Shown here one piece after another: positions 45 to 25,541 of a stretch of 34,660 bases of DNA. This DNA is from a virus: the IMG/VR virus record IMGVR_UViG_3300020470_000088, positions 1 to 34,660 of that record. One strand, given 5' to 3'. Below the pieces are notes generated by a model. The model made no database searches. It was not told where the DNA came from and saw only the letters and a program-made list of their open reading frames with translations. How positions within the stretch are numbered: position 1 is the stretch's first letter; each line of letters opens with the position of its first letter. The position numbers and the translations under genes were made by a program.

Positions 45-66
45 CAATCACAAAGGAGTGTACAAA

Positions 67-957
67 ATGAAACTACTAAAACAATACATACTTGATACAG
101 CTACCGAGGAATTGGCTAGATACGTGACAAATCAATTTGAACCGTCTGGGCTATCATACAAAGAGCTACTAGGTACAAAAAACGGGTTTTCCACCTTGCT
201 AGGAAAATCCACCAAATGGGCTAATGACTTTGGTGACTATTGGGTGACTGGTATGTACTTGGCACCCCATAGCGAAGTACACGGTTTGCAATTGTGTTGG
301 GGTCGGGGTGCGTGCGTTCGTTCGTGTCTCATATATACCGGTCATAATGGTGTCAGACCTACAAACCACATGAAAAAAGACATGCATATTTCAGAACGTA
401 GGACGCGCGCCCTTTTTGAACACACCGAAATGTTTCTGACTCGGCTAATTGCTCAAATTATGATGATGTCAAATCAGCGTGATAGTTTAATGATTCGGTT
501 AAATGGGACTAGTGATATTCGATGGGAATTCATTTTAGACTTGCGCAAGATGTCCGATGATTTCGGCTGTAAATTCTTTGATTACACTAAACTACCACTA
601 TCCAAGCGCGCGCCAATTGATGGCGTGTATCGTCTCTGTTATTCGTATGATGAAAAAAAGGTCAGCTGGGACCGTGCTACAGAATACATTGAGGCGGGCT
701 ATCCCGTGGCAGTTGTACTCACTAAAGAAGACTACAAAAAAGTTTTGAGTTGGACAAATGAGTACATCATCGATGGGGATGCGCACGATATACGCTATTT
801 TGATTCGGGTATCTGTGTACTCAAATACAAAAGACCTACCGGTAAATATGCACAAACACCTAACGAGCAATTCATTCAATCGGTGCAAGTGGTCTCTAAT
901 CTTGCATACAAAAAACTAGCCTATGAACACACAAAAAAATACGGGGTGACGGTATGA
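67..957 (+). CDS. GP88-family phage protein (function unknown)
   Basis: A 296-aa protein that matches from memory the 'gene product 88' family of phage proteins. Seen in the sequence: a Cys cluster in the first third (LCWGRGACVRSCLIYTG), followed by a basic ERRTRALFEHTEMFL stretch, the diagnostic RLNGTSDIRWE, FFDYTKLP, an AVVLT strand, and DGDAHDIRYFDSG near the C terminus. These blocks occur in that order in family members. No biochemical role is established for the family; the clustered Cys suggest metal binding (inference). The start is placed at ATG 67, eight bases after the AAAGGAG at 52-58. An in-frame GTG at 58 overlaps that Shine-Dalgarno and is unlikely. It opens a run of small plus-strand genes, and the next gene overlaps it by ATGA. 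Confidence 0.75.
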   Translation: MKLLKQYILDTATEELARYVTNQFEPSGLSYKELLGTKNGFSTLLGKSTKWANDFGDYWVTGMYLAPHSEVHGLQLCWGRGACVRSCLIYTGHNGVRPTNHMKKDMHISERRTRALFEHTEMFLTRLIAQIMMMSNQRDSLMIRLNGTSDIRWEFILDLRKMSDDFGCKFFDYTKLPLSKRAPIDGVYRLCYSYDEKKVSWDRATEYIEAGYPVAVVLTKEDYKKVLSWTNEYIIDGDAHDIRYFDSGICVLKYKRPTGKYAQTPNEQFIQSVQVVSNLAYKKLAYEHTKKYGVTV

Positions 958-1301: not shown

Positions 1302-1521
1302 AGTTACATTGTTGGTTGAAGACGATGTGGGAGACTGGGTCACCTTGGAGTTAGAAACCGAGTACAACAAAATTGTGTCGCAAGATGAAAATCAAATGAT
1401 GGATTATCTTTTCGGGCGCGTACTCGGTGATGGTATAGAGTCTTTTGATACGCTATGCTCATACATCATCATAATAGACTACACTGACGGCTCCTCTTTT
1501 ACTCGGTGGAAATTGCTGTAA
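1291..1521 (+). CDS. small acidic hypothetical protein, 76 aa
   Basis: The start at 1291 is chosen because GGAGG lies at 1281-1285 with six bases of spacing; the upstream in-frame ATG at 1255 has no such site. The protein begins MAVKVTLLVEDDVGDWVTLE and alternates hydrophobic and acidic residues, giving a predicted small alpha/beta or beta-sheet domain. A YIIIIDYTDGSSFTRWKLL strand forms the C terminus. Function is unknown. It ends the leftmost run of tightly packed small genes and is followed by a strong stem-loop at 1538-1572. Confidence 0.65.
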   Translation: MAVKVTLLVEDDVGDWVTLELETEYNKIVSQDENQMMDYLFGRVLGDGIESFDTLCSYIIIIDYTDGSSFTRWKLL

Positions 1522-1537
1522 TAACAACAACAGTATC

Positions 1538-1572
1538 TATATTGCGGTTGCATTATGTGCAATCGCAATATA
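1538..1572 (+). other. 15-bp stem-loop, possible terminator or RNA processing site
   Basis: TATATTGCGGTTGCA at 1538-1552 pairs with TGCAATCGCAATATA at 1558-1572 through a five-base loop, with a single G-U pair. No T tract follows on either strand, so this is not a textbook intrinsic terminator. It may protect or process the 3' end of the small-gene transcript. Confidence 0.6.
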
Positions 1573-1624
1573 AAATACTAAATAACATCATAAACTATCA
1601 TTAACAACTAACAAAGGACACAAG

Positions 1625-1936
1625 ATGACCCAACAAAAGAACGGTAAGGGAAGACCGAAGGGAAGCGGTAACGGTCGCTTATTGGCTCCGAAGAATCTAA
1701 TTAGTAGGGCTATTAAGGAGAGGAATATAAACAGCCTCCTATGGGCATTCATAACGCTTACACATAACGAAATCAAGGAGGATGGGAAGCCGTCAACGTT
1801 TTCAGGTAGCGACTTACAACACTTTGTCAAATTGCTGCACTTGCGAGAAGTCGAGCGACCAATGCAGAATGATGCAAATGCAGAAATGGCTACACTGCAG
1901 TTGCAACAATGGCTGGATGCAGACACAGCAAAATGA
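1625..1936 (+). CDS. hypothetical 103-aa protein, possible small terminase or DNA-binding protein
   Basis: AAAGGA nine bases before ATG 1625 supports the start. The N terminus is basic and glycine-rich (KGRPKGSGNGR), resembling an AT-hook. A helical middle (LISRAIKERNINSLLWAFIT) follows, and the protein ends in a helix-forming tail with many Gln, Ala and Leu residues. It is the last clear plus-strand gene before the large terminase, where many phages place the small terminase subunit. The length fits the smaller members of that group, and a basic N terminus would suit DNA binding. No terS signature is recognisable and a 1.1-kb gap separates it from terL, so the role is an inference from position. 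Confidence 0.5.
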   Translation: MTQQKNGKGRPKGSGNGRLLAPKNLISRAIKERNINSLLWAFITLTHNEIKEDGKPSTFSGSDLQHFVKLLHLREVERPMQNDANAEMATLQLQQWLDADTAK

Positions 1937-2107
1937 CGCGGGCGCAACAATGCTGTCGGTGCAATATGTTGCAAACGCAAAATCATCGTTAGGCGGATAG
2001 AACGGCTGGGGGTTACTTGGACTATCTAGACTGTGTAAGTCAAACAGCAAATCTCGGTGGCAGTTAGTACATCGCCAGTGTGGAAAGGGAGGGGGTGAAA
2101 ACGGTTC
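1937..2107. other. non-coding stretch upstream of palindromic promoter 1
   Basis: I see no supported gene here. It is richer in G than its surroundings and ends in a purine-rich run around 2080-2100 (GGGAGGGGGTG). I looked for a tRNA around 2000-2060 and could not build a cloverleaf. Confidence 0.4.
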
Positions 2108-2131
2108 AACACAACTGTGTTGTGTTATAGT
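2108..2131 (+). promoter_or_regulatory. palindromic operator fused to an extended -10 promoter (copy 1)
   Basis: AACACAACTGTGTTGTGTT (2108-2126) is a perfect 8-3-8 inverted repeat. Its last T is the first base of TATAGT (2126-2131), and TGT precedes that, giving an extended -10 (TGnTATAGT). There is no good -35. A dimeric regulator on the palindrome would sit exactly where polymerase contacts the spacer. A near-identical arrangement recurs at 2709-2732. Confidence 0.65.
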
Positions 2132-2221
2132 GAAACACCTCTCCCGAACACACGGCAGTTGTACGGCTTGGCTGTTTGTCGATGTCCGAGATTAGGTGGT
2201 GACCAAGTTACAGGAGATATA

Positions 2222-2266
2222 GCAACGCCGGAGAGTGTGTTATATAAACACGCTCGTAGGCGTTGC
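2222..2266 (+). ncRNA. two-tier stem-loop, candidate structured RNA
   Basis: An outer 8-bp stem (GCAACGCC / GGCGTTGC), a GGA/GTA internal loop and an inner 9-bp stem (GAGTGTGTT / AACACGCTC, one G-U) close a five-base loop. It lies about 85 bases downstream of promoter copy 1 in a stretch without a supported gene, so it would fall in that transcript. There is no T tract, which argues against a simple terminator. The class is unknown. Confidence 0.45.
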
Positions 2267-2316
2267 GGTCGCCTCACTAGTTCCAGATGGTATCTACTCG
2301 AATAACTAAAAGTCTA

Positions 2317-2361
2317 AGCCCCGTGCGAATGTGATACTCAATCACATTGTAGCACGGGGCT
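2317..2361 (-). terminator. intrinsic terminator of the minus-strand 94-aa gene
   Basis: A perfect 10-bp outer stem (AGCCCCGTGC / GCACGGGGCT) and an inner 8-bp stem (AATGTGAT / ATCACATT) lie eight bases past the stop of the minus-strand gene. On the minus strand the stem is followed by TTAGACTTTT. The two-tier shape, including a GTA on one side of the internal loop, resembles the hairpin at 2222-2266. Confidence 0.6.
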
Positions 2362-2368
2362 GGTCGAC

Positions 2369-2653
2369 TTACTCCTCTAGGTTTTCCGGAAAGATTGCTA
2401 GGAATGTGTTGAAGTGAAAGAGACCTGGTGCGTCAAATATGTAAAAGTTCGCGTCTCTTAAAACGTTCTTTACTCTATCAACATCATCTTGTAGTTTCTG
2501 ATTGTCATCGATTGTAAGTTGATACAGTTGCACCATAAGGTTTTGTCCGTGTGTATGAACAATAGCCTCGCTACTCATATCAAGACTGTTAAGCGCTGAC
2601 TCTATCGAGTCTGCTCGTTGTGCTAAGTATGAGTGGGATAGTTGGTTAGTCAT
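2369..2653 (-). CDS. small hypothetical protein, 94 aa
   Basis: The start is placed at position 2653, where TGGAG precedes the ATG by about seven bases. The longer in-frame start (MEIKM) would include that Shine-Dalgarno in the coding region. The protein is helical, beginning MTNQLSHSYLAQRADSIESA with a central segment rich in Asp, Gln and Leu, and ends in an aromatic stretch (FYIFDAPGLFHFNTFLAIF). I recognise no family. It is an isolated minus-strand gene inside a plus-strand region, flanked on each side by a palindrome-promoter element and followed by its own terminator. That placement would suit a regulatory or accessory gene, but no HTH is seen. Confidence 0.65.
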   Translation of the reverse strand: MTNQLSHSYLAQRADSIESALNSLDMSSEAIVHTHGQNLMVQLYQLTIDDNQKLQDDVDRVKNVLRDANFYIFDAPGLFHFNTFLAIFPENLEE

Positions 2654-2708
2654 TTTAATCTCCAATGATTAAGGTTAAGCCCGTAGGCAGTGTGTGTATG
2701 AACGGGTG

Positions 2709-2732
2709 AGCATAACTGTGTTATGCTATAGT
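2709..2732 (+). promoter_or_regulatory. palindromic operator fused to an extended -10 promoter (copy 2)
   Basis: AGCATAACTGTGTTATGCT (2709-2727) is a perfect 8-3-8 inverted repeat with the same core, AACTGTGTT, as copy 1. It is fused to TATAGT at 2727-2732, preceded by TGC, and both copies continue with GAAA. It points toward terL and lies 77 bases downstream of where the promoter of the divergent 94-aa gene must end, so one bound regulator could affect both directions. Confidence 0.65.
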
Positions 2733-2849
2733 GAAAGGAACACACAACTACAGAGGGCTAACCGACATTGGGTTACTGACAACTACCCACGGCAACGATG
2801 TGCAATGATATGCTGTGTGTAGATATGTATGCTAACTCCTCTATGCTAT

Positions 2850-2908
2850 CTCCCCTCACTGCCTATTCCCCTGGAAGAACAACGTAGCGAAAGAGGTAGC
2901 AAGGGGAG
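2850..2908 (+). ncRNA. long stem-loop in the terL leader, candidate structured RNA
   Basis: CTCCCCT (2850-2856) pairs with AGGGGAG (2902-2908). After a CA/CA internal loop, CTGCCT (2859-2864) pairs with AGGTAG (2894-2899), enclosing a 29-base apical region. A smaller stem follows at 2939-2955 (ACGACC / GGTCGT). No supported gene lies between promoter copy 2 and terL, so the roughly 300 bases would be untranslated leader or a separate small RNA. Confidence 0.4.
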
Positions 2909-2977
2909 TGGAGAACGGCACTGAACGTGACGTGCGTAACGACCCTTGCGGTCGTCTATGTGTGTATGCGTGTGTGT

Positions 2978-2989
2978 TGTGTTATGCTA
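2978..2989 (+). repeat. degenerate third copy of the operator half-site
   Basis: TGTGTTATGCTA repeats exactly the right half of palindrome 2 (2717-2728). The left arm is replaced by alternating GT and there is no TATAGT. It may be a decayed or low-affinity site 85 bases before terL. Confidence 0.4.
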
Positions 2990-3002
2990 GTCTAATAAAC
3001 TA

Positions 3003-3048
3003 GTGGCGATAAAAATATGATACATTAATTCATATCTTTTATCGCCAC
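3003..3048 (+). other. 18-bp stem-loop immediately upstream of terL
   Basis: GTGGCGATAAAA (3003-3014) pairs perfectly with TTTTATCGCCAC (3037-3048), and ATATGA pairs with TCATAT inside it, leaving a nine-base loop and one bulged C. It ends 25 bases before the terL start, which has only a weak Shine-Dalgarno. It could set terL translation or mark a cleavage site; no T tract follows on the plus strand. Confidence 0.6.
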
Positions 3049-3073
3049 GGTCAACTACTCATTAGGCTGGTCA

Positions 3074-4585
3074 ATGCAACTCACTCAAGTACAATCAATC
3101 TTTACTGACCCATTCCAGTTCATTAGTCGCTTAAACATTGTCGATAAGACTGGTAAGGTTGTTAAACTGGTATTGAATGCCGAGCAGATAGATATAATCA
3201 ATGCCTTGCAAGAGGGTAATGACACACTTATTCTTAAGCCTAGGCAGATAGGTAGTAGTACTGTTGTATGTGCTTATATGTTCTGGAAAGCATACACAGC
3301 AACAACACCATTAACTTGTATCATCTTGTCTTATAAGATTGCTAGTTCTAAACACTTACTGCATATACACAAGAGATTCTATCAGTATCTTCCTGAGGTG
3401 TTGAAAAGACCATTAGATGTAGACAATACAACAGAGTTGGCATTCAAGGGTGGTGGTAGGATTGTCGCAGCTGCAGCAACTCAAGCAGGTGGTCTACGTT
3501 CTTACACTTGTTCTATGCTACACATATCAGAGTATGCTTTTGCAGAGAATCCTGAGGAGTTAAAGGCAACTGCTATTAGTGCATTGAATGATGGTCAACT
3601 AGTGATTGAGAGTACTGCTAACTATTACAATGATGCGTTATGGAAAGAGATACACAAGTGTTTGATAGGTGAGGCTAGTTGGAGATACTTGTTCTTTCCT
3701 TGGTTTAAGCATTCAGAGTATACAATGGAAGATATACCAATAGAGTTGACTGATACAGAGTTAAAACTACAAGAAGATTATGGCTTAACATTGGGTCAGT
3801 TGTGTTGGCGAAGAGAGAAAGTCAGTAAGTTAGGATGGGAGAAGTTTGTACGAGAGTATCCTTTGACATTGGATGAGGCATATAGGATAAGTGGTAATAC
3901 GTATTTTAACTATGAAGACTTTGAGAATGTAGAGGTAATAACGGTAAGTCCAACAGAATGGGTAACGTTTGAAGAGCCTAAGGAAGATGATACGTATGCT
4001 ATTGGAGTAGATGTTAGTGGTGGTGTTGGTAGAGACTATGCAGTTGTGTATTGTGTAAGTAGAATGACATTGCAACCGGTGTGTATCTATAGAAGTAATA
4101 CGGTAAGTCCAGTACAATTAGCAGATTATATATACGATATGAGTGTGACATATAATAATGCATTGACATTGGTAGAGAGTAACAACTATGGACTAGCGAC
4201 GATAAATGAGTTAAAGCACCAAGGGTTCTATAGGTTTTGGTTAGATGCATTAACTGGAAAAGATTTCTTAACTACTTCAAGAACAAAACCACTATTATTC
4301 GAGAATCTCAAGAAAGGAATACAGACTGGTGCTATTAGAATGATAGACAATATAACGATGACAGAACTAAGAAGTATAACAGTAGATGAGAAAGGTGTGC
4401 TAAAGTTTGGTGAGGATATGGACACTCACTGTGATAGTGCAATGGCAATGGCATTAGCATATTGGTGTTTGAATAGTGTTAAGGTTAAAGAGCGAGCATA
4501 TTTACCGGATTGGATAATTGATATGAAAGCAGATAGAATCAGAGATAATGCTGGTGTTAGTCCCAGGTTGCATAGACGGTATTGA
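3074..4585 (+). CDS. terL: terminase large subunit
   Basis: The 503-aa motor and nuclease that cuts concatemers and pumps DNA through the portal. ATPase half: a deviant Walker A, LKPRQIGSST, at about 54-63; a Walker B region, LHISEYAF, at about 149-156 with catalytic Glu preceded by Ser rather than Asp, as seen in some phage terminases; and a coupling motif, ESTAN, near 179. Nuclease half: GVDVSGGVGRDYAVV (first metal-binding Asp), a middle acidic motif LVESNNYG, and a C-terminal DTHCDSAMAMALAYW. Length is usual for the family. The Shine-Dalgarno is poor (AGG 11 bases upstream) and a large stem-loop ends at 3048, so translation may be controlled. The portal gene follows after 34 bases. Confidence 0.93.
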   Translation: MQLTQVQSIFTDPFQFISRLNIVDKTGKVVKLVLNAEQIDIINALQEGNDTLILKPRQIGSSTVVCAYMFWKAYTATTPLTCIILSYKIASSKHLLHIHKRFYQYLPEVLKRPLDVDNTTELAFKGGGRIVAAAATQAGGLRSYTCSMLHISEYAFAENPEELKATAISALNDGQLVIESTANYYNDALWKEIHKCLIGEASWRYLFFPWFKHSEYTMEDIPIELTDTELKLQEDYGLTLGQLCWRREKVSKLGWEKFVREYPLTLDEAYRISGNTYFNYEDFENVEVITVSPTEWVTFEEPKEDDTYAIGVDVSGGVGRDYAVVYCVSRMTLQPVCIYRSNTVSPVQLADYIYDMSVTYNNALTLVESNNYGLATINELKHQGFYRFWLDALTGKDFLTTSRTKPLLFENLKKGIQTGAIRMIDNITMTELRSITVDEKGVLKFGEDMDTHCDSAMAMALAYWCLNSVKVKERAYLPDWIIDMKADRIRDNAGVSPRLHRRY

Positions 4586-4619: not shown

Positions 4620-6266
4620 ATGCGTACGAATACTGAGATTGTACATTTGATTAGAACTGTGTTGGATGAGCATAATCATTTCTATGACCAACAAAGAGCA
4701 GAGTTAAAACGATACCGAGATGTATATGAGAATCGTTTTTGGCAGTCAGAGTATATGGATGACACGATGGTTCGTGTGGAGACTGCTGATTGTTTTGCTT
4801 ATGTTGAGGGATTCATAGCGTCTTTGTTTTCTAGGAATCCAGCAATAGTTGTTTCTAAAGATAAAAGTATTGCTGAGGGTAATCCTCAAATGGCACAAGA
4901 AGTGGTTAATCGTTTTTTGTTTGACAAACGAGAGCAATTAGAGATAGCAAGTAGACTCGCCCTTATTTATCCCTCAAGTTTCTTGAAACTTTCTCCCACT
5001 GATAGTACGGATATGCTTGAAAGAGTCTCTATCCGTGCTATTCCGTGTTGGGAGATTATTCGAGATTTAGATGCGTCGAGTTGGGAAGAGCAACGGTTTG
5101 TGGCACATACGTACTACTTGAGCATACCTGAGGCTAGAGAAAAGTTTGGCAAAAAGAAGTTTACGGCTATACCGAAAGTAGAATACTTTACACCACAAGA
5201 AAAGTATACTGGTGTTAGTGAAGATTTACCAGATGATTATTTGTATATTCAAATAGTAGAGTTTTACGACCTAGCATACGATAAGTTGTATATGTGGACT
5301 CCAAACCATAATGATGGTGAAACCTTGTTGGAGAAAAGTCAGATACCGATTCGGACTTATGACGACAAACCGATGAGTAGTATTTGTCCGTTGTATTATT
5401 CTCGACGACCAGAGAAACCAATGTTGGGTATGAGTGCTGTATGTCGAGTATATGACCAGTTTTATGAGAAGAACATTCTGCGTACATATTGGGCGAATAG
5501 TGTACGAAGAGATTCTCGTCAATATTTGTATAAAGAGGGTGCATTAGATGAAGAGGCATTGGCTAAGATTACTGCCGGTGTAGATGGTGCAATGATTCCG
5601 GTAGATGAACCGATACTGGATGGTGTTATACGTAGTGTTGGTGTTGAGCCATTGAGTGGTAACTTTGATAGATATTTGACCTACATTGAGCAAGATATAA
5701 ACCGTGGAAGTATTCTTGCTCCCTTTAGTCGGGGAGAGGCGACTAAAGCGACGGCAACCGAAGTGACTGCTTTGGCTCAATACTCTGCTAGTGAGATTGG
5801 TAAGATGGCTAGGGAACGAGATAATGCGATAGAGTTGTTGGCTTTAACGTATCTTAGGACCATTGCTTTGTTAGCAGAAGATGATGAGACTGCGTTTATT
5901 GAACTAGAGGGTTTACCAAAAATTATTACGGTTACTGACCTAGATGCCAAGTTTAAAATGGTTGCATTGGACCAGTCGTCTACTCCTTTGTCAGAGGCAA
6001 TCAAACGGTCCAACTTGGTTCAACTAATGCCAGTGTTAATGCAGTTGGGAGTACCAATGGATAAAGTAAAAGATGAGATTATCCGTTTGTACGACTTACC
6101 CGAATCCTTTAAAGAAAGCCCACCAGCACCTCCAGCTGCACCTCCAGGAATGGGCGGTGCAATGGGTGGCGGTCCAGAAGACTTGACCACAGTACCTGGT
6201 GAAGTTGGGGCAATGGGAGAATCACCACTACAACAACTACCACAAATGTTGAATAGAGCCAGATAA
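4620..6266 (+). CDS. portal protein (head-tail connector)
   Basis: A 548-aa protein placed directly after terL with GGAG before ATG 4620. As a dodecameric ring it would sit at one capsid vertex, dock the terminase and pass DNA. The N terminus is helical (TVLDEHNHFYDQQRAELKRY) and the middle is an alpha/beta mixture with long helices typical of podoviral portals. A segment near 380-410 (FSRGEATKATATEVTALAQ) looks like the helix entering the tunnel region. The C terminus is a low-complexity Pro/Gly/Met tail (PPAPPAAPPGMGGAMGGG), common in portals. Assignment rests on size, position and these features rather than on one diagnostic motif. Its TAA overlaps the next ATG. Confidence 0.85.
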   Translation: MRTNTEIVHLIRTVLDEHNHFYDQQRAELKRYRDVYENRFWQSEYMDDTMVRVETADCFAYVEGFIASLFSRNPAIVVSKDKSIAEGNPQMAQEVVNRFLFDKREQLEIASRLALIYPSSFLKLSPTDSTDMLERVSIRAIPCWEIIRDLDASSWEEQRFVAHTYYLSIPEAREKFGKKKFTAIPKVEYFTPQEKYTGVSEDLPDDYLYIQIVEFYDLAYDKLYMWTPNHNDGETLLEKSQIPIRTYDDKPMSSICPLYYSRRPEKPMLGMSAVCRVYDQFYEKNILRTYWANSVRRDSRQYLYKEGALDEEALAKITAGVDGAMIPVDEPILDGVIRSVGVEPLSGNFDRYLTYIEQDINRGSILAPFSRGEATKATATEVTALAQYSASEIGKMARERDNAIELLALTYLRTIALLAEDDETAFIELEGLPKIITVTDLDAKFKMVALDQSSTPLSEAIKRSNLVQLMPVLMQLGVPMDKVKDEIIRLYDLPESFKESPPAPPAAPPGMGGAMGGGPEDLTTVPGEVGAMGESPLQQLPQMLNRAR

Positions 6267-11743: not shown

Positions 11744-13932
11744 AGTCTCAGCGGTTGAAACAGTTTGTCCAACTGGGTGGTATAAACAGAATACTGACAC
11801 CAAAGATAGGTGATGCAGAGACAGTTTTGAATTGTCGTATGTCTGTCGAGGGTGGCTGGATGGGTAACGTTGGATTTCAATCCTGGTGGAGAAATCCGTC
11901 GTCGTGGACTGTATCTGAAAGCACACTACAAAAATACTTTGAAAAGAAAGTGGACAGTTGCTATCAGTGGAAAAGACAAGGCTCAAACGATGTATACACG
12001 TTTGTAGAACAGAATGGAGTGTTATATTATGTTTTGGGGAATAAAGGGCAAGGTACGACATACACAGGTGCGTTTTATGAAAATGACATTGTTGTGGTTG
12101 ATAGTGATAGGTACATTCCCAAGTTGGGTGATACTGGCAGTCAGTATGTCAATCTGGGAAGACACCTTTTAATAATCAATGGACGCGACCGCGCAATATT
12201 GTTTAGTGGTGATAGATTATTTAGAGACTTTGGGTTTGTATTAGGTGGTCCAACAGTTTCTCCATACGATATAGATGCTGAATATTTTAACAATAAAGTA
12301 CTAACGGCTACTGCTATTGCTTTTAACAAATCAACTGTGTTTGGATTAGGTGGTGTAACAGAAAACGAGCGATATGTTTATCAATACAAAATGACAACTA
12401 TTAGTGACTTAGGAGCAGAATCACCACTATCAGGAGAACAAGAAGTATCTTGGACTATACCTAATGCACAAGACAAAAGATACGCTGTTGCATTAGACTT
12501 ACCTTTGGGTGATGTTGGCACTGTTGCTAGACGTATATATAGAACTAAAGAGATTAACACTAGCGGTGGACTGTTTTACTTTGTAACTCAAATAGACGAA
12601 AATTCTAGTCGATTCTACATAGATACTATGCCAGACAAATACTTAGTAGATGAAGCACCGAGGTTTACAGCCAGCACGAGTATTAATACAAACTTTCGAA
12701 TAGGAGAAAACTGGGATAATAGATTGTGGTTAGCAGAGGGTACTCGCATAATCTATAGTGACAGTGGTATATTTGAACAATTTGGAGCAACTAACTACTT
12801 TGAATTAGGAGCCTTTCAAGGTGGCGACATTATTCAATTGCAGTCATTCTATAACAGTCTTATTGTGTTTCGAGAATCTGCTATTAACATTATAAGTTTT
12901 AATAACAATGGCTTTAACATATCGACAGTAACTAACACTATTGGTACTACTGCACCTAATAGTATTGTTGTTATTCCACAGTTAGGTATCATCTTTATGA
13001 ATGAACAAGGTGTTTATATACTAACTGGTGGTTTAAACGGTGGTGCTAGTCTTAAAGTACAAAAGATTAGTTTTGGTATTGATGACTTATTAAACCGTGT
13101 CAATACATCTATGATACACAAAACTATTGCAGCTTATAGTCCAGTAGAACGTGAGGTGTGGATACACTTTCCATCGGACGATAGCGTTATACCAGATACT
13201 GGTATAGTGTTGCATTCAATGACTGGTAACCCCTCTTGGTCTATTAGAACTGCTTTTGCTAATGTAGACAAAGCATACTGGTCTGCACTAACAACAACTA
13301 TAGATGGTTTATTCTTATTGGGTAATGCACCTGAATGGACTATTGCAGCCGGACAAACAACAAAGAAGTTTGGTCCATTACAAGTAATGACAAATGCAAA
13401 TAACTGGGGACAGTCTTGTACAATTACTTCATTAAACGCAGGAACTGCTGTACTTACTATTACAGACACTACTAATCCAGGACACACTTGGGAATCAGAG
13501 TGGTATGGGTTTGCACAAAACAGTGTAAAAGTAAGATTCTACAGTGTTGAACTTAGGCTTATGTCTTATGGGGACAACTCGTTTGAGTTCTTTTATAGCA
13601 CTGATTATTCATACACTGAGAATGTTACAACTGCACAAAAGCAAGCAAGGTCGGAAACTGTATTCACTGTAAATGAGGATGCGGTTTTTGGGGCAGCTGA
13701 TGCTACGGTGACAAAGGTTCCATTTACAGTGAATAGCAGTTATATAGCCGATGGGCGTTTAATAACCCTACGGTATGATGTGAACACACAACTATGTGAC
13801 CAGTTTAAGTTTGGAATTCGGACAACAAACGATACTCAGTGGCATTTGTTATCTATGAATTTACTCTCTGACGCACAGGCTTTACCATCATTGAATCAAG
13901 CCACACGTCTACAGAAAGGGCAAGCAAGATGA
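11740..13932 (+). CDS. tail tubular B / tail hub (nozzle)-like protein
   Basis: A 730-aa protein starting at GTG 11740, which overlaps the previous TGA (GTGA) and follows AAGGAG by eight bases. The opening (LGGINRILTPKIGDAETVLN ... GGWMGNVGFQSWWR) matches the start of podoviral tail-stabilisation proteins (P22 gp10 / T7 gp12 type), whose beta-propeller forms the tail tube tip. The body is beta-strand-rich with recurring 'YVYQYKMTTISDLGAESPLS' type strands, as expected of propeller blades. No enzymatic motif is seen. The next gene overlaps by ATGA, so the tail proteins are translationally coupled. Confidence 0.72.
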   Translation: MKSQRLKQFVQLGGINRILTPKIGDAETVLNCRMSVEGGWMGNVGFQSWWRNPSSWTVSESTLQKYFEKKVDSCYQWKRQGSNDVYTFVEQNGVLYYVLGNKGQGTTYTGAFYENDIVVVDSDRYIPKLGDTGSQYVNLGRHLLIINGRDRAILFSGDRLFRDFGFVLGGPTVSPYDIDAEYFNNKVLTATAIAFNKSTVFGLGGVTENERYVYQYKMTTISDLGAESPLSGEQEVSWTIPNAQDKRYAVALDLPLGDVGTVARRIYRTKEINTSGGLFYFVTQIDENSSRFYIDTMPDKYLVDEAPRFTASTSINTNFRIGENWDNRLWLAEGTRIIYSDSGIFEQFGATNYFELGAFQGGDIIQLQSFYNSLIVFRESAINIISFNNNGFNISTVTNTIGTTAPNSIVVIPQLGIIFMNEQGVYILTGGLNGGASLKVQKISFGIDDLLNRVNTSMIHKTIAAYSPVEREVWIHFPSDDSVIPDTGIVLHSMTGNPSWSIRTAFANVDKAYWSALTTTIDGLFLLGNAPEWTIAAGQTTKKFGPLQVMTNANNWGQSCTITSLNAGTAVLTITDTTNPGHTWESEWYGFAQNSVKVRFYSVELRLMSYGDNSFEFFYSTDYSYTENVTTAQKQARSETVFTVNEDAVFGAADATVTKVPFTVNSSYIADGRLITLRYDVNTQLCDQFKFGIRTTNDTQWHLLSMNLLSDAQALPSLNQATRLQKGQAR

Positions 13933-18635: not shown

Positions 18636-21600
18636 ATGGCAACGACACCATCTATAGAGGAAATGAGCAAGTTAATGGGTACACCGTTAACACCTATCCA
18701 ATATGAAATAGCAATTGCTAATTTAGATTTAATAATGTCGCAAGTTGAAGCGCAACAAGCAGCTGCTCAAAATCCATATATGACCGAAATGGAACGTGTT
18801 GGTACAGACCGACTACAAAGAGAATTAGATGAGATTAATAAAATTAGGTCAAAAGCACAAGTTGGCGGTTATGGCTCATTAAGCGCAAGAGAAGTACCGG
18901 CAGGTTTGCCTATGGAAACACAGACTGAACACAAAGGTGCTGGTATTCTGTTGGAACCATTTTATAGAAGTCAAACAGTTGGTGAGGATAGTGCAACATT
19001 TGCTAAGACGTATGCAGATGCAGAAGTTTTAGTAGAGGATATGAGACAACACGGATATAACTTTGAAGAAATGAATGCTGGTCGTGCAATGTTTATGGAA
19101 CTTCGTGAAGATTATCCAGACTTGTCGTTAAAAGAAGTTAATGATTTAACAAGAGAAAAATTAAATTCATTATTACAGTCACCAGAATATATAACTGAAG
19201 ATGAATACCACGAACTTATGCCTGGTATGCGTTCTAGAATAGGTGTTGAGCAACTACCTTTAGGTGCGCAAAAGTCAGACAATTTGTTAGCAAGTGTTTT
19301 AGATTATCAAAAAACACCAGGAACGAATCTTAGAAAATATGATAAGTATCAAATGGCATATTTGAATAGTTTACAAAATGCTAAATATGATGCTGAAATA
19401 GAACGTCAAAAAGAATTGGTTCCAACTTCTTATACAATGAATAATTTTTATGAAGTTAAGTTAGGTCCAAACAACTACGCATTATTACCACAAGAGGTGT
19501 TTGATTATATACAAGATAACCCTACTGGTGGTGTTGTATACAATGCTCAAAAAGACACAGACATAATAGAAGCTTTAAAAAAAGGAGACTATAAAGAATT
19601 AGGTTCTGCGGATTTAGGTTACCAGGGACAAACACAAAGAACAATAGATGCTATAGCAAAAGTAAGAGCCTATAAAGAATTAGGAAATCCTGATTGGCAA
19701 CAAGATATAAACAAACGACGAGAAGTATTAGAAAACCTAGACTTGTTTAGTACTACAAGTATTGGTGGTACTAGAACAGACCCATTAGGTGGTACTGCCG
19801 AGGGAAGTGGTGCTTTTGTACTTCGTGCGTCTTTAATGCCCTACAATGCTTTTGCAGGAGCTGTAACTACCGCATTAGATTTGCCTACAGAATATGCAAT
19901 GGGTGCTGCTTTTGAGGGTGCAGAGAAACTTGGTATTGTTGGTGAAGCAGATTATTTGTCAGATGTAGGTACTGGTCGGTATAGTACAAGACAAATACGA
20001 AAAGAAGAACGACCAGCTTTGTATAGCGAGGGAGGGTTGTTATACGAAATGGCTGATAATATGGCGCGCAATAAAGGATTTACCGGAGAGGGTACAGTTA
20101 TTGCAGAGGGTCTAAATCTAGAGGGTACAGCAAAATATATTACACACGGTGGTCGTTTTATAATGGATATAACAGACCCAAGTTTGGATTTAGCAGCTGG
20201 AACAGTTTCAGGAATCAGTGCATATAATAAAAGTAAGAAACTTCACAAAGCGGTATATGGAGCCAGTAATACACAAGAGGCAACAAAGGCCGCAAAACAA
20301 GCATTTGCAAGAAGTATGGAAGACCCATTCAATATTTATGGGATGACTAAAAAACTTGTTACTCGAAAAAAAATTGATGTTCCAAAGAATATAGATAGTG
20401 ATGATGTGTTGTTAGTTATGGGCGATAATATGGCACAAAACTTGTCTGCTATAAGACATTTGGAAACAGATGAAGCGTTATTTAATTTAGATAATACATT
20501 GGTTGGTCAACAATATTTTAATAACCCAAGTCCAATTGCAGCAGAAGAAGTTATAACCAACTTTCGTGACAACATAAACCGTTCTCCAGTAGCAAAAGAA
20601 CTTTTAAGTGAATACGACGCAACTGTAGAAGAAGTGATTTCTATTGCTCAAGACTATGCAAATTATATGAATAGGGCTTCTAGTTTTCGTAACTATGGAG
20701 ATTACAATTTAACATTTGGTGAATATTTAATAGATGTATTAAAAAATCCATCATCGTCTTTTGTAACAAAACAAGCCAGAAAAGCTGTTCGCACAAATGT
20801 AGAAGACTTAGTGCAGTCACTAAATGCTAACAGAAGAACACCTTTAAGTAACGAAGACTTAGCTGCTGAACTAGCAGCAATCAAAGATGCTAGTACTAAA
20901 GGTACGAAAACTGTTAGACCAAATATGCAAGCAATAAAAGATAGTATAGATATAAATATTGGACGTATGGACGATGTTGATAGTGTAGAAGAAATCTTAA
21001 AAGCATTAGATACAATATATGGTAGGGCTATATTCTTTGATATGTCTGCTCGGTTTATGCCAAGTCAAGTTAGAAAAGGTTTGGCAAAAGCAAACTTTAT
21101 TACCAGAAACACTATAGTAGACAAAAAAGCAAAACCTAAAATAATTGCAGCAGCTGCTCAAAGTGACATTGGACAAGCGTTACATCGTGTCATAAAATTA
21201 TCAGACGACACACCTATGCTTGTAATACAAAAGTCAAGTAATACACCTACATATTCACAGATAACTAAAAGACAAACGTCTGCACCAACTGAAACAAAAC
21301 GAGCCTACGACTTAGAGGGTTTGACTGATGTTGAAAAAAGGGCACTTGTTGATAGTGTACGATTCTTAGATATGAATGGAATAATAAAAGACGAAATACT
21401 GCAAGATATAATAGAAGAAAACATATTAGTTTTAGATGATATGAATATGTTGTTAGACGCTAACGTAGACAGAGTAGCACGTAAGTATGCTGAGACAGCG
21501 TCGGTAGATGACATAGAAAAACTTGGTACAGCAAATTACAATAGATTACTAGAAGCTGAGGGTTCAGCTTTTCGTTATCAACCTAAAGGTATAAAAAACT

Positions 21601-24600
21601 TTTTTAAAAGACTTGTTGGTAAAGAAGAACCATTTGTAGAAGTACCTTTTCAAGCATTTAGACAAAAGCGTATTATTGAAGAATACAACCGACAGATGAG
21701 TACTTTGCCGGAAAGAACTGAAGCATTGTTTAATGAATTAATAGCATATAACAACCCTAAATTAGAAAGAAGTGCAGAGGGTGTAAGTCGTTATATGGAC
21801 GAAACAGTTGGACGTAAAATAACTAAGAATGAAGTGTTTGGACTGATGATTGTTGGTGAAAGAAGTACTGGTGCTAGTCGTGTACAACAAGAACAAATAC
21901 TACAAGAAACTATAGAGATGTTAGTTCAACAAGTGTTTAATAGAACAGTAGATGTATTAGACAATATAAACGCAAGTGATGAACTAAGTGGTATACGAAG
22001 ATTTTTTAAAAGCAATATATTTAATCAGCACGGTCGTGAATTTATAAAGTCAAAAGCATTAGAAATTAGCGAACGTGTAGTACGTGACCCTTTATCTTTT
22101 AATGACGAAATGATTGGATTATTAGAAGAGATTGACGAATCTATACAAAGTTTACGTATGCGTGATGAATATATAAAAGTAGATACTCCTACACAATCTA
22201 GTCAAAGAATACAAAAGCCTATTAGTGATAAAAATAGATTTCGCACTAATCCTCTTAGTCACGAAGAGGGTGGAAGTATAGTAAGAGTATACTATCAAAA
22301 CGGCACTTATCGAGATTATGATAGAGTTAAGTATCCAAATGCATTTATAAAGAAGATACAAGAATCAGCAAGTGATTTTCAAAGCGCAAAAGTCATAGAC
22401 GAATCTATAGAAGAGATAGATTATAGACCAGTAGATGAATATGAACTATTACCTGGAGACAGAGTTAAAGATGTATATGTGGATATGCCTGGACAACCTG
22501 GTCAACGTATATCAAAGGCTATTGTTGATTTAGATGTCAACTTTGAGAATGTACGTTCGTTAGAAGAATTAAAATTAGACAATAAATACGAAAAGGTATT
22601 GTTTGGACTATACGCTTTTGCTGAACAACAAAGAGAACTTAGTGCATTAGTGGCAAAGTCTGTTCGTAGAGACATAATAGGTTTAAGGATAGAAGACTTT
22701 GCACCTGGGATAGAGTTTTCACAACAAGCGTTTGAAGAGGCTATTAAGCAAGCAGTAATCAATCGGTATCTAGAACTAAGCAATGGAGGAGGGTTTGGTC
22801 CTAATACCAATATGTATCGCAATATAGTAAGTGACGCACACAAAATGGACCAAGCAACACAACTTGATACTGCAATAAATGTAAAGAAAATAGATGATGA
22901 AATATATAAAGAAATAAGAAGTGCTGAAAAAGAATATATAAGACAGACCAGTAGTGAACTACGAGCTGAAATAAAAAGACGAAATGAAAAAATTAAAGAG
23001 CAATTAGTAGAAACTAGAGCTGACTTTAAAGACCAAATGGACGCTGTAATTGGTAGGTTTAATGATGATGCTAGAGTGTCTGTAGGTAGATTAAAAGAAG
23101 AAAAGCAATTAGCGTTAGAAAAATATTTAGGTACAAAAGAAAAACGAAAGAAGACACAACAGTTTCCAAAGAAAGGTCAACCTAGAATTACTTGGGTCAA
23201 AAGAAAGACTACTGACCCAGAATACAAAAAGATAATGAAAGAGTACAATGAACAGATAGACCAATTGTATAGAAAGATAAGTAAAGACAGAAAACAATTA
23301 AGGAAGTCTTTAACAGAAGAAAAGAATAGAAAACTTGTACAAGAAAAGGACAAGTTAATAGCCGAGCGTGAACAATATATTAGACAACGAGAAAGTGACC
23401 AAGATGTTCAATATGAAGTAGACGAAGATTTGCAGTTACAGTTAGACCGTGGAGAAATAACTGATGAGCAATATACAAGATTATCGTTAAAGAATCAGAT
23501 TGCAAGACAACCGGATATACAATCTAAGATACAATTAATGAGGTCATTAATCACAGACTATGACGCAGCGTTTGATGAAATATACGACATTTTTGCCAAG
23601 GGTCGATTGGACGATGACGTATTGGATAGATTAGCAACTGAAGTAGAAAACTATGCAGAAATAGTATTACGAAACAATAATCTATCACAATCTATTAGAG
23701 GTGTAACATTAAATGAAGTAACGGAAACTATAGATAAGTTTTTTAAGGTTCCAGGATTGGCAACAGCAGTATTAGGTAAAGACCAAATGCAAAGTATGAG
23801 ACAAGGATTCTCACAACAAAACCTTGTACAAAGTTTACGAAAAATACTGCAAGAAGAACCAGAGCTTATAGACTCAGTTGATGCGTTGTTTGCTTTCAAT
23901 ATAGATGCTTTATATACTTTTGCATTAGGTTTTAACCTTGCGTCAATAGGTAGAAATTTAATAACTGGACCTGCCATTGTATATCAAACTATAGGTCAAA
24001 TTATATCACCTAGATATGTAAGTAAAGGTTCAAGAGTAACTGAATTTGGGGCAAATGTAAATCATCCAAAACATTATGACATTGTCGTTAAAACACCAAC
24101 TGGTAAACAATATACATACGCTGATGTATATAGAATACTTGCAAAATCAGGTGTAAGAAATCAATACAAATTTTTTGAAAGTGTTATACGTGACGGTGAG
24201 TTTATACGTGAACTAAAAGAGATGAACGAACTTGGACATTTAAGCAAAAGTAACTTTGATAGATTGTTAACTAACTTAAAGAATATACTTAGAAAAGACA
24301 TTTCAGCTGCAGAAAAACTTTATATGTTAACACCTAAATCTGCTAAGAACATTCCAATTGTAGGTACTTTAGGCAATGTTGGTTTAGGATTACAAACTAA
24401 AACAGATTACGCATTTAGAGCTGGTGTTCTTGTAAAGGCTTTAGAAGAGGGTAAGAGTGTAGAAGAAGCTGCTGCTTTAAGTAGAAGAAGTTTGTTTGAT
24501 TATAGTGATGTTAAAATATTTGACGACTTAACTAGTCAATCAAAAATGTTAAAGAAAGCGTTTGTATTTGCTACTTTTTCATTAAGAAATTTAGAAACAA

Positions 24601-25541
24601 CTTTGCAAGCCATATTTAATGCTGCTTTTGGTGACGCTACACAGTTAGTTAAATTAGCAAGATTAATGCGTGGACAAAATGGTGTAGAGCGTGTAATAAA
24701 TGCAAATAATGATAATAAACAACCACCATACGAATATTACTATCCAACGTATGCACAAAATTCTATAACAACTGTAGTTGGAGAATACGGTGGCGATGAT
24801 ACCTTTGTTCGTTTACCACCATTGCCAGCTATAGAAGCATTAGAATCTCTTGCAGATGCAATTTATTTAATAAAACAACTTTTACCTGAACACAAAAGAC
24901 CGGCAGATGTAGAAACCGTTGCAGAAAAGTTATTCGGATTTTTAAGTCCAGTGTTAAAAGAAGCTGTTCACCCTTTAGTAAAACAAAAATATGAACCTGG
25001 ACACGTACCTCCTGAAATAATTTCAATCTTAACAGCACACCCAGGGTTTGATACAAGTACTCCGTATGCCATAGCAGATAGTTTAGAACGTATTACTGGT
25101 GGTAGAATTAACCCAGTTAAAGCTGCACCAGGTAAAGGTGTTAAAGGTGGTTACAAATATCCTCTTACAGCAGAACAAAAAGAGCAATTGTACCACCGTA
25201 GTTTTTACACTGCTCTTAAAATGTCTGGGATTTTACCTATGGTTAATACAGTAGTAAGAACAATAGACCCAGAGGGTACAGTTATAGGAGATATGGAAAG
25301 TCCTACTTGGGAGGCTAAGGTTTTAAACTATACTACTATGTATAATTGGATAATAGGACTGCATAGTATTCACCAAATGAAAACACCGAAGTCACAACAA
25401 CTAGAAGCTTTGCGTAATTTAAACGCAGAAATTGAGAGAATAAAAAGACACCACGAAAAAGAAACTAAAGCCTTTATGATATTGGGTCCAAATACTACAC
25501 AAGAAGACATACAAAAAGATATAGATGCAGAGACAGATTGA
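18636..25541 (+). CDS. giant internal virion protein, 2301 aa
   Basis: At 2301 residues this gene fills a fifth of the window. A hydrophobic stretch at about 393-430 (LMPYNAFAGAVTTALDLPTE...) may insert in membrane. A long basic coiled coil runs at about 1420-1590 (SAEKEYIRQTSSELRAEIKR onward), and a second hydrophobic run at about 1750-1795 (FALGFNLASIGRNLITGPAI) is followed by helical modules up to the C terminus. The third ejection protein of podoviruses (T7 gp16 type) is usually about 1300 residues and often carries a lytic transglycosylase; I could not find that catalytic signature here. Phage N4 packs a giant RNA polymerase in this position, but no polymerase motif is evident either. 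Its TGA (25539-25541) lies inside the -35 of the next promoter. Confidence 0.6.
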   Translation: MATTPSIEEMSKLMGTPLTPIQYEIAIANLDLIMSQVEAQQAAAQNPYMTEMERVGTDRLQRELDEINKIRSKAQVGGYGSLSAREVPAGLPMETQTEHKGAGILLEPFYRSQTVGEDSATFAKTYADAEVLVEDMRQHGYNFEEMNAGRAMFMELREDYPDLSLKEVNDLTREKLNSLLQSPEYITEDEYHELMPGMRSRIGVEQLPLGAQKSDNLLASVLDYQKTPGTNLRKYDKYQMAYLNSLQNAKYDAEIERQKELVPTSYTMNNFYEVKLGPNNYALLPQEVFDYIQDNPTGGVVYNAQKDTDIIEALKKGDYKELGSADLGYQGQTQRTIDAIAKVRAYKELGNPDWQQDINKRREVLENLDLFSTTSIGGTRTDPLGGTAEGSGAFVLRASLMPYNAFAGAVTTALDLPTEYAMGAAFEGAEKLGIVGEADYLSDVGTGRYSTRQIRKEERPALYSEGGLLYEMADNMARNKGFTGEGTVIAEGLNLEGTAKYITHGGRFIMDITDPSLDLAAGTVSGISAYNKSKKLHKAVYGASNTQEATKAAKQAFARSMEDPFNIYGMTKKLVTRKKIDVPKNIDSDDVLLVMGDNMAQNLSAIRHLETDEALFNLDNTLVGQQYFNNPSPIAAEEVITNFRDNINRSPVAKELLSEYDATVEEVISIAQDYANYMNRASSFRNYGDYNLTFGEYLIDVLKNPSSSFVTKQARKAVRTNVEDLVQSLNANRRTPLSNEDLAAELAAIKDASTKGTKTVRPNMQAIKDSIDINIGRMDDVDSVEEILKALDTIYGRAIFFDMSARFMPSQVRKGLAKANFITRNTIVDKKAKPKIIAAAAQSDIGQALHRVIKLSDDTPMLVIQKSSNTPTYSQITKRQTSAPTETKRAYDLEGLTDVEKRALVDSVRFLDMNGIIKDEILQDIIEENILVLDDMNMLLDANVDRVARKYAETASVDDIEKLGTANYNRLLEAEGSAFRYQPKGIKNFFKRLVGKEEPFVEVPFQAFRQKRIIEEYNRQMSTLPERTEALFNELIAYNNPKLERSAEGVSRYMDETVGRKITKNEVFGLMIVGERSTGASRVQQEQILQETIEMLVQQVFNRTVDVLDNINASDELSGIRRFFKSNIFNQHGREFIKSKALEISERVVRDPLSFNDEMIGLLEEIDESIQSLRMRDEYIKVDTPTQSSQRIQKPISDKNRFRTNPLSHEEGGSIVRVYYQNGTYRDYDRVKYPNAFIKKIQESASDFQSAKVIDESIEEIDYRPVDEYELLPGDRVKDVYVDMPGQPGQRISKAIVDLDVNFENVRSLEELKLDNKYEKVLFGLYAFAEQQRELSALVAKSVRRDIIGLRIEDFAPGIEFSQQAFEEAIKQAVINRYLELSNGGGFGPNTNMYRNIVSDAHKMDQATQLDTAINVKKIDDEIYKEIRSAEKEYIRQTSSELRAEIKRRNEKIKEQLVETRADFKDQMDAVIGRFNDDARVSVGRLKEEKQLALEKYLGTKEKRKKTQQFPKKGQPRITWVKRKTTDPEYKKIMKEYNEQIDQLYRKISKDRKQLRKSLTEEKNRKLVQEKDKLIAEREQYIRQRESDQDVQYEVDEDLQLQLDRGEITDEQYTRLSLKNQIARQPDIQSKIQLMRSLITDYDAAFDEIYDIFAKGRLDDDVLDRLATEVENYAEIVLRNNNLSQSIRGVTLNEVTETIDKFFKVPGLATAVLGKDQMQSMRQGFSQQNLVQSLRKILQEEPELIDSVDALFAFNIDALYTFALGFNLASIGRNLITGPAIVYQTIGQIISPRYVSKGSRVTEFGANVNHPKHYDIVVKTPTGKQYTYADVYRILAKSGVRNQYKFFESVIRDGEFIRELKEMNELGHLSKSNFDRLLTNLKNILRKDISAAEKLYMLTPKSAKNIPIVGTLGNVGLGLQTKTDYAFRAGVLVKALEEGKSVEEAAALSRRSLFDYSDVKIFDDLTSQSKMLKKAFVFATFSLRNLETTLQAIFNAAFGDATQLVKLARLMRGQNGVERVINANNDNKQPPYEYYYPTYAQNSITTVVGEYGGDDTFVRLPPLPAIEALESLADAIYLIKQLLPEHKRPADVETVAEKLFGFLSPVLKEAVHPLVKQKYEPGHVPPEIISILTAHPGFDTSTPYAIADSLERITGGRINPVKAAPGKGVKGGYKYPLTAEQKEQLYHRSFYTALKMSGILPMVNTVVRTIDPEGTVIGDMESPTWEAKVLNYTTMYNWIIGLHSIHQMKTPKSQQLEALRNLNAEIERIKRHHEKETKAFMILGPNTTQEDIQKDIDAETD

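Follow-up and report, generated by a model that had tools for sequence, protein, structure and literature searches.

A covarying hairpin at the terminase junction of uncultured phages is probably a new structured RNA family

The 34,660-b virus record IMGVR_UViG_3300020470_000088 from IMG/VR, analysed here over its whole length and called the window, carries two matched palindromes close to its terminase genes, each adjoining a hexamer that resembles a promoter −10 box. A preliminary description had read them as a pair of DNA operators fused to extended −10 promoters, which raises the question of whether these repeats act as double-stranded DNA or in some other form. A direct sequence check located the perfect 8-3-8 palindromes at 2108–2126 and 2709–2727 as described, with a shared core AACTGTGTT and arms that differ at two symmetric positions each. 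The last T of each palindrome is the first letter of TATAGTGAAA, TGn precedes TATAGTGAAA, and comparison of the two window copies showed that they also share the 10-mer just downstream. The surroundings had been called a nearly gene-free kilobase; this is roughly right in that the gap between the presumed small terminase gene (TerS) and the large one (TerL) runs from 1936, where TerS ends, to 3074, where TerL starts, but a minus-strand ORF of 94 aa with a ribosome-binding site lies in between. The genes of the junction are:

1625 to 1936, plus strand: presumed small terminase subunit (TerS), assigned from position and conservation
2369 to 2653, minus strand: 94-aa cargo ORF between the two hairpin copies described below, its start codon 29 nt from the base of copy 2
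3074 to 4585, plus strand: large terminase subunit (TerL), matched by tblastn to annotated TerL at no more than 28% identity and in 57 IMG/VR loci at 80–98%

The presumed TerS had no match in Pfam or PHROGs.

The window contains three perfect 8-3-8 palindromes. Since dinucleotide shuffles give 0.85 on average, a lone palindrome of this kind is unremarkable, and the third one, at 13188 within a gene, was not conserved in the nearest relative. However, no pair sharing the 9-bp centre or a downstream 9-mer occurred in 200 shuffles, and the matched pair is therefore not explained by chance. Chance palindromes in AT/GT-rich sequence, in whose favour the expectation of ~0.85 can be cited, thus have a vanishingly small probability, and they are refuted by the structure that covaries across relatives.

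By sequence comparison the window's TerL is without a close cultured relative: its top-ranked phage match is Roseobacter phage CRP-7 at 28% identity, and all matches fall below 60%. Searches for cultured-phage DNA similar to the window's first 8 kb or to the element of one relative returned none, and a search of GTDB genomes for relatives likewise returned none. The family sample consists of 57 IMG/VR loci with related TerL (80–98% identical), all from uncultured phages. About 30 of the 57 carry, near the terminase genes, a palindrome of other sequence and loop length in front of TATAGT or TACAGT (TAYAGT), and a scan for palindromes before TAYAGT gave 54 matches versus 9 in reversed control sequence. 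With TerL at least 80% identical throughout, this is a young family, so that the stem changes described below are not all independent. Elsewhere in the genome, the fastest-changing large gene is an ORF of 2301 aa (18636–25541), which is 44% identical in G001, a relative with 98% identical TerL; it had no match in Pfam, PHROGs or a PDB sequence search, and a 730-aa ORF of the virion region had none in Pfam or a PDB sequence search.

What the preliminary description overlooked is that both palindromes lie within far longer complementary arms. In the predicted structure each palindrome forms the 8-bp stem (P2) at the apex of a rod-like hairpin of ~70–94 nt on the terminase-sense strand, encoded in the window between the presumed small and large terminase genes. 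Folding gives the layout ATCGCCAGTGTGG...outer stems...ACGNNNN-P2-TAYAGT...return strands...CCACACCAGATA, a long imperfect stem that is interrupted by an asymmetric internal loop with ACGNNNN on its 5' side and TAYAGT on its 3' side. Across the family P2 is strictly Watson-Crick, has 6–9 bp and is capped by a pyrimidine-rich loop of 3–6 nt. The hairpin measures ~94 nt, or ~240 nt counting conserved flanks. Its parts in the window, with scores from the covariance model R1 described below, are:

1982 to 2068, plus strand: 5' domain of type A, starting ATCGTTAGGCGG, 92–95 nt from the hairpin in 13 relatives
2069 to 2162, plus strand: hairpin copy 1, type A, downstream of presumed TerS (R1 56.5 bits, E 2e-14, copy 1 being one of the 13 sequences used to build R1)
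2078 to 2094, plus strand: outer-stem 5' strands, GTGTG at 2078–2082 and GGGAGGGG at 2087–2094, from the fold and the model alignment
2101 to 2107, plus strand: 5' side of the internal loop, ACGGTTC, with ACG almost invariant in alignments
2108 to 2126, plus strand: apical stem P2 of copy 1, AACACAAC-TGT-GTTGTGTT, from the sequence, with arms that covary in relatives
2127 to 2131, plus strand: ATAGT, which closes the internal loop on its 3' side and opens the return strand, previously described as a −10 box, from alignments
2138 to 2153, plus strand: outer-stem 3' strands, CCTCTCCC at 2138–2145 and CACAC at 2149–2153, from the fold and the model alignment
2683 to 2751, plus strand: hairpin copy 2, type B, upstream of TerL (R1 23.2 bits, E 0.0016 over 788 kb, copy 2 having been left out of model building)
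2709 to 2727, plus strand: apical stem P2 of copy 2, AGCATAAC-TGT-GTTATGCT, from the sequence and the model alignment

Copy 1 folds with a z of −4.4, and the AC of its ACG pairs with GT at 2130–2131. Copy 2 has a shortened outer stem and the low score given above; L001 and L002 have a copy 2 near-identical to that of the window and have lost the apex of copy 1. In L007, L008 and L051 the apical loop holds a 58-nt insert with a terminator-like hairpin plus A and T tracts. Alternative pairing of an upstream GGCTATCT box with the P0 3' strand was rejected by eye, as the box ignores the P0 changes of L006 and L009. An attC-like site, considered for the GTTAGGC box, was set aside on inspection, which revealed no R/L box pair.

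Pairing is maintained while the sequence changes. In a 34-pair structure over 13 sequences, 86% of cells are paired and 15 pairs changed on both sides; none of 500 shuffles scored as high, and slid controls were 31–55% paired. For P2 plus the inner outer stem in 28 sequences, the paired fraction is 94% (15–58% in slid controls), with 70 cells changed on both sides versus 17 after shuffling. The P2 arms themselves are Watson-Crick in 248 of 249 cells. Selection for symmetry, which had been claimed from the compensating arms of the two window copies, is thus borne out by covariation in relatives, where the palindromes are kept, with other sequences, as the tips of hairpins. Among the sister phages L030, L032 and L045, P2 differs within flanks that are almost identical.

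The covariance model R1 recovers both copies of the window and ~50 from relatives, among them copies outside its training set (L011, E 2e-21; L013, 3e-17). Every one lies next to terminase and runs in terminase sense, and the element is confined to one locus per genome. Two 14-mer scans of IMG/VR brought in mainly unrelated contigs, used as negative controls; on these ~100 unrelated loci R1 gave nothing credible beyond chance-level matches. Two longer motif scans added a single contig, a chance match. Distant TerL relatives (22–48% identity) did not yield the element; the sole match, a marginal one, was in L260 and on the other strand. No Rfam 15 family matches the hairpin at the curated threshold, and our literature search found no report of such an element.

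The element occurs in two layouts. Type A comes after presumed TerS, with a 5' domain that hardly varies in length, and type B sits 25–33 nt away from the start codons of small, divergently oriented ORFs (37–122 aa); in the window and in L032 the order is TerS, type A, ORF, type B, TerL, so that two hairpin copies bracket the cargo ORF. This cargo slot (window 2369–2653, minus strand; L001, L007, L008, L013, L016–L020, L025, L029, L032) is occupied by small minus-strand ORFs that are mostly unrelated, such as the unrelated 122-aa ORF that takes the place of the window's 94-aa ORF in L001. Several of them resemble single-TM proteins, and they share a conserved 5' flank GGCGATATAACC...AAAAGGAG...ATG that starts 25–33 nt from the hairpin base. 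Behind copy 1 the window has a further long hairpin (2318–2360; AGCCCCGTGC...GCACGGGGCT), with a compensating change in L001 (CCAGTGC/GCACTGG). Just behind presumed TerS, short repeats such as TTGCAAnnnCAGCA or GAAACAnnGAAACA form arrays that lie between it and the hairpin (window ~1937–1985), are strong in L043, L033 and L037, and are possible candidates for TerS-binding or pac repeats. A GP88-family protein (PF17338; window 58–957) is encoded upstream of presumed TerS, as it is in most carriers with contigs long enough to include that region, L032 excepted; in the element-less L043, GP88 lies on the opposite strand. On the TerL tree the element-less phages group in two clades, both of them nested among carriers, so that the simplest account would be that the element is ancestral and was lost twice within the family.

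Most relatives have a sigma70-like TTGCAT-17-TATNNT pair 79–89 nt downstream of TAYAGT, among them L026, whose TerL is 1 kb distant. Where the element precedes presumed TerS, as in L013 and L021, a different pair, TTG..-18-TAAAAT, lies 87–94 nt downstream. Inspection of the window did not locate the full TTGCAT-17-TATNNT pair, only TATGCT at 2828–2833 without a recognisable −35. From these sequences the downstream pair appears to be a better candidate for the TerL promoter than TGn-TAYAGT. A second hairpin, whose loop reads GGGAC(A) and whose stems change, sits downstream of the TTGCAT-17-TATNNT pair in the TerL leader of L009–L029, L049 and L057 (for example L009 ~4900–4960). Kissing between its GGGACA loop and the C-rich P2 loop was considered and rejected, as by eye the loops do not covary.

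Read on the terminase strand, the outer stems contain 54 G-U versus 8 A-C cells (20 versus 2 in P0 plus P1 alone), a bias present in both layouts (41:5 and 13:3), in a structure drawn partly with plus-strand RNA folds, a procedure that favours G-U. The RNA fold is stronger on the terminase strand in 24 of 29 copies. The excess of G-U over A-C and the stronger fold on the same strand point to the terminase strand, as RNA or, less probably, as single-stranded DNA. Single-stranded DNA, too, tolerates G-T better than A-C. P2 contains no G-U in 249 cells, whereas in the outer stems G-U makes up ~7% of the standard pairs. A stem so free of G-U would be uncommon in plain RNA and suggests that P2 is under some additional constraint, for instance binding as dsDNA, formation of a DNA cruciform or strict recognition as dsRNA; it is the strongest remaining argument for recognition at the DNA level or of strict dsRNA. 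A further point against RNA is that a plus-strand RNA of type B copies would need to run antisense through the divergent small ORF.

A pair of dsDNA operators bound by a single phage repressor or activator, with an extended −10 promoter overlapping each and firing toward the terminase genes, would agree with perfect symmetry lacking G-U intermediates, with the retention of TGn-TAYAGT in almost all copies, and with the two HTH_3 proteins that the genome encodes (28509 and 28895), both of them Cro/CI-like. The resemblance to lambdoid CI/Cro operator/promoter pairs lies in a palindrome with symmetric arms that adjoins a −10-like hexamer. Unlike in those pairs, the half-site spacing is variable, the arms differ within one genome, there is no co-variation with the encoded HTH proteins, and a long covarying stem encloses the palindrome, something that a DNA operator does not need. 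Specifically, loops of 3, 4, 5 and 6 nt vary the spacing by up to 3 bp, even among the near-identical phages L030, L032 and L045, and L032, like the window, carries copies with different arms, in its case with two spacings as well. The recognition helices of the two proteins (HTH1 and HTH2) are nearly identical in G005, G007, G010 and G011 despite different arms, and element-less genomes retain the genes (HTH2 in G003 and G019, HTH1 in G003). Because the helices are almost constant while arms and spacing differ, and because the genes outlast the hairpin, HTH1 and HTH2 appear to be a poor fit as regulators; an unrecognised regulator may exist. In addition, L007, L008 and L051 have lost TAYAGT though their hairpin persists. 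Spacing, arms, helices and the nested outer stem thus fail to support operators for a dedicated HTH regulator, and we regard that reading as quite unlikely. The internal loop, together with the pairing of AGT with the AC of ACG, would account for the −10-like box: for the most part TATAGTGAAA coincides with the 3' strand of this conserved loop (ACG.../TAYAGT) and with the return strand of the outer stem. TGn-TAYAGT may additionally work as an extended −10.

The pac and cos sites of phages often lie between the two terminase genes. The position of the element, the repeat arrays directly after presumed TerS, the strict Watson-Crick pairing of P2 and a G-T over A-C bias compatible with single-stranded DNA would all suit a plus-strand ssDNA or cruciform element that acts as a DNA hairpin, for example in replication or packaging. 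However, the distance from the element to TerL is 600–1100 bp in L026, L033 and L054, in L013 and L021 the element sits on the opposite flank of presumed TerS, and two clades have lost it yet must still package their DNA. The RNA reading is also simpler, and we judge a DNA hairpin to be distinctly unlikely. The long and stable stem might instead form the 3' end of the upstream operon transcript, as a terminator or exonuclease barrier, given its location after presumed TerS and before a new promoter-like pair and the terminator-like loop insert in L007, L008 and L051. No T-run follows the stem, and no intrinsic terminator was found at 1500–3200; a barrier needs neither a conserved internal loop nor the CA/TG pairs, and the element precedes presumed TerS in L013 and L021. 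We consider a 3'-end structure unlikely.

Several known phage elements invite comparison. The manA and wcaG motifs are candidate structured RNAs of cyanophages that were found by comparative genomics and are linked to metabolic genes, with manA RNAs sitting in potential 5' UTRs (PMC2864571). As with these, the hairpin was recognised by covariation in environmental phage sequences and its function is inferred from gene neighbourhood; unlike these, it lies at the terminase junction upstream of a promoter-like pair for TerL and matches no Rfam family. The hairpin promoters of the N4 virion RNA polymerase have stems of 5–7 bp and a 3-nt loop on the template strand. P2 resembles them in its short stem, small loop and possible promoter role, but the G-U bias here marks the other strand and the short stem tops a much longer one; no RNA polymerase was recognised among the scanned phage proteins. 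GOLLD and ROOL RNAs can also lie in phage genomes. Both are large, ornate structured non-coding RNAs (PMC12286853). The element shares with them a structured RNA, here predicted, in a phage genome, but is far smaller and has no match to those Rfam families.

Taken together, we consider it very likely that the element is a structured RNA, and likely that the combined claim holds, namely that it is a structured RNA and not a DNA operator pair. It is probably a new RNA family, absent from Rfam, and a candidate regulator of the terminase junction; the regulatory role itself we propose only tentatively, at somewhat less than even chances. The suggestion of RNA in a nearly gene-free stretch has thus held up in the form of a hairpin between TerS and TerL. 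Transcription past presumed TerS would yield the hairpin RNA in the direction of terminase, a phage or host protein that binds RNA would read the internal loop and the base of P2, and the element would thereby separate or couple the expression of two operons, an upstream one with GP88 and TerS and a late one beginning at TerL. It is highly improbable that the RNA instead acts on the packaging machinery, as a terminase cofactor in cis or trans like the phi29 pRNA, or on RNA polymerase, with TGnTAYAGT in the internal loop holding the enzyme at the junction.

The TerS/TerL junction is the one gene junction that tailed phages need, and it is there that the element would add a structured RNA family to phages without cultured relatives. 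Because the apical stem is swapped whole among close relatives with its pairing kept, these phages provide natural compensatory mutants for testing what reads it. The element also cautions against taking every compensating palindrome next to a −10-like hexamer for an operator; such palindromes can be RNA stems.
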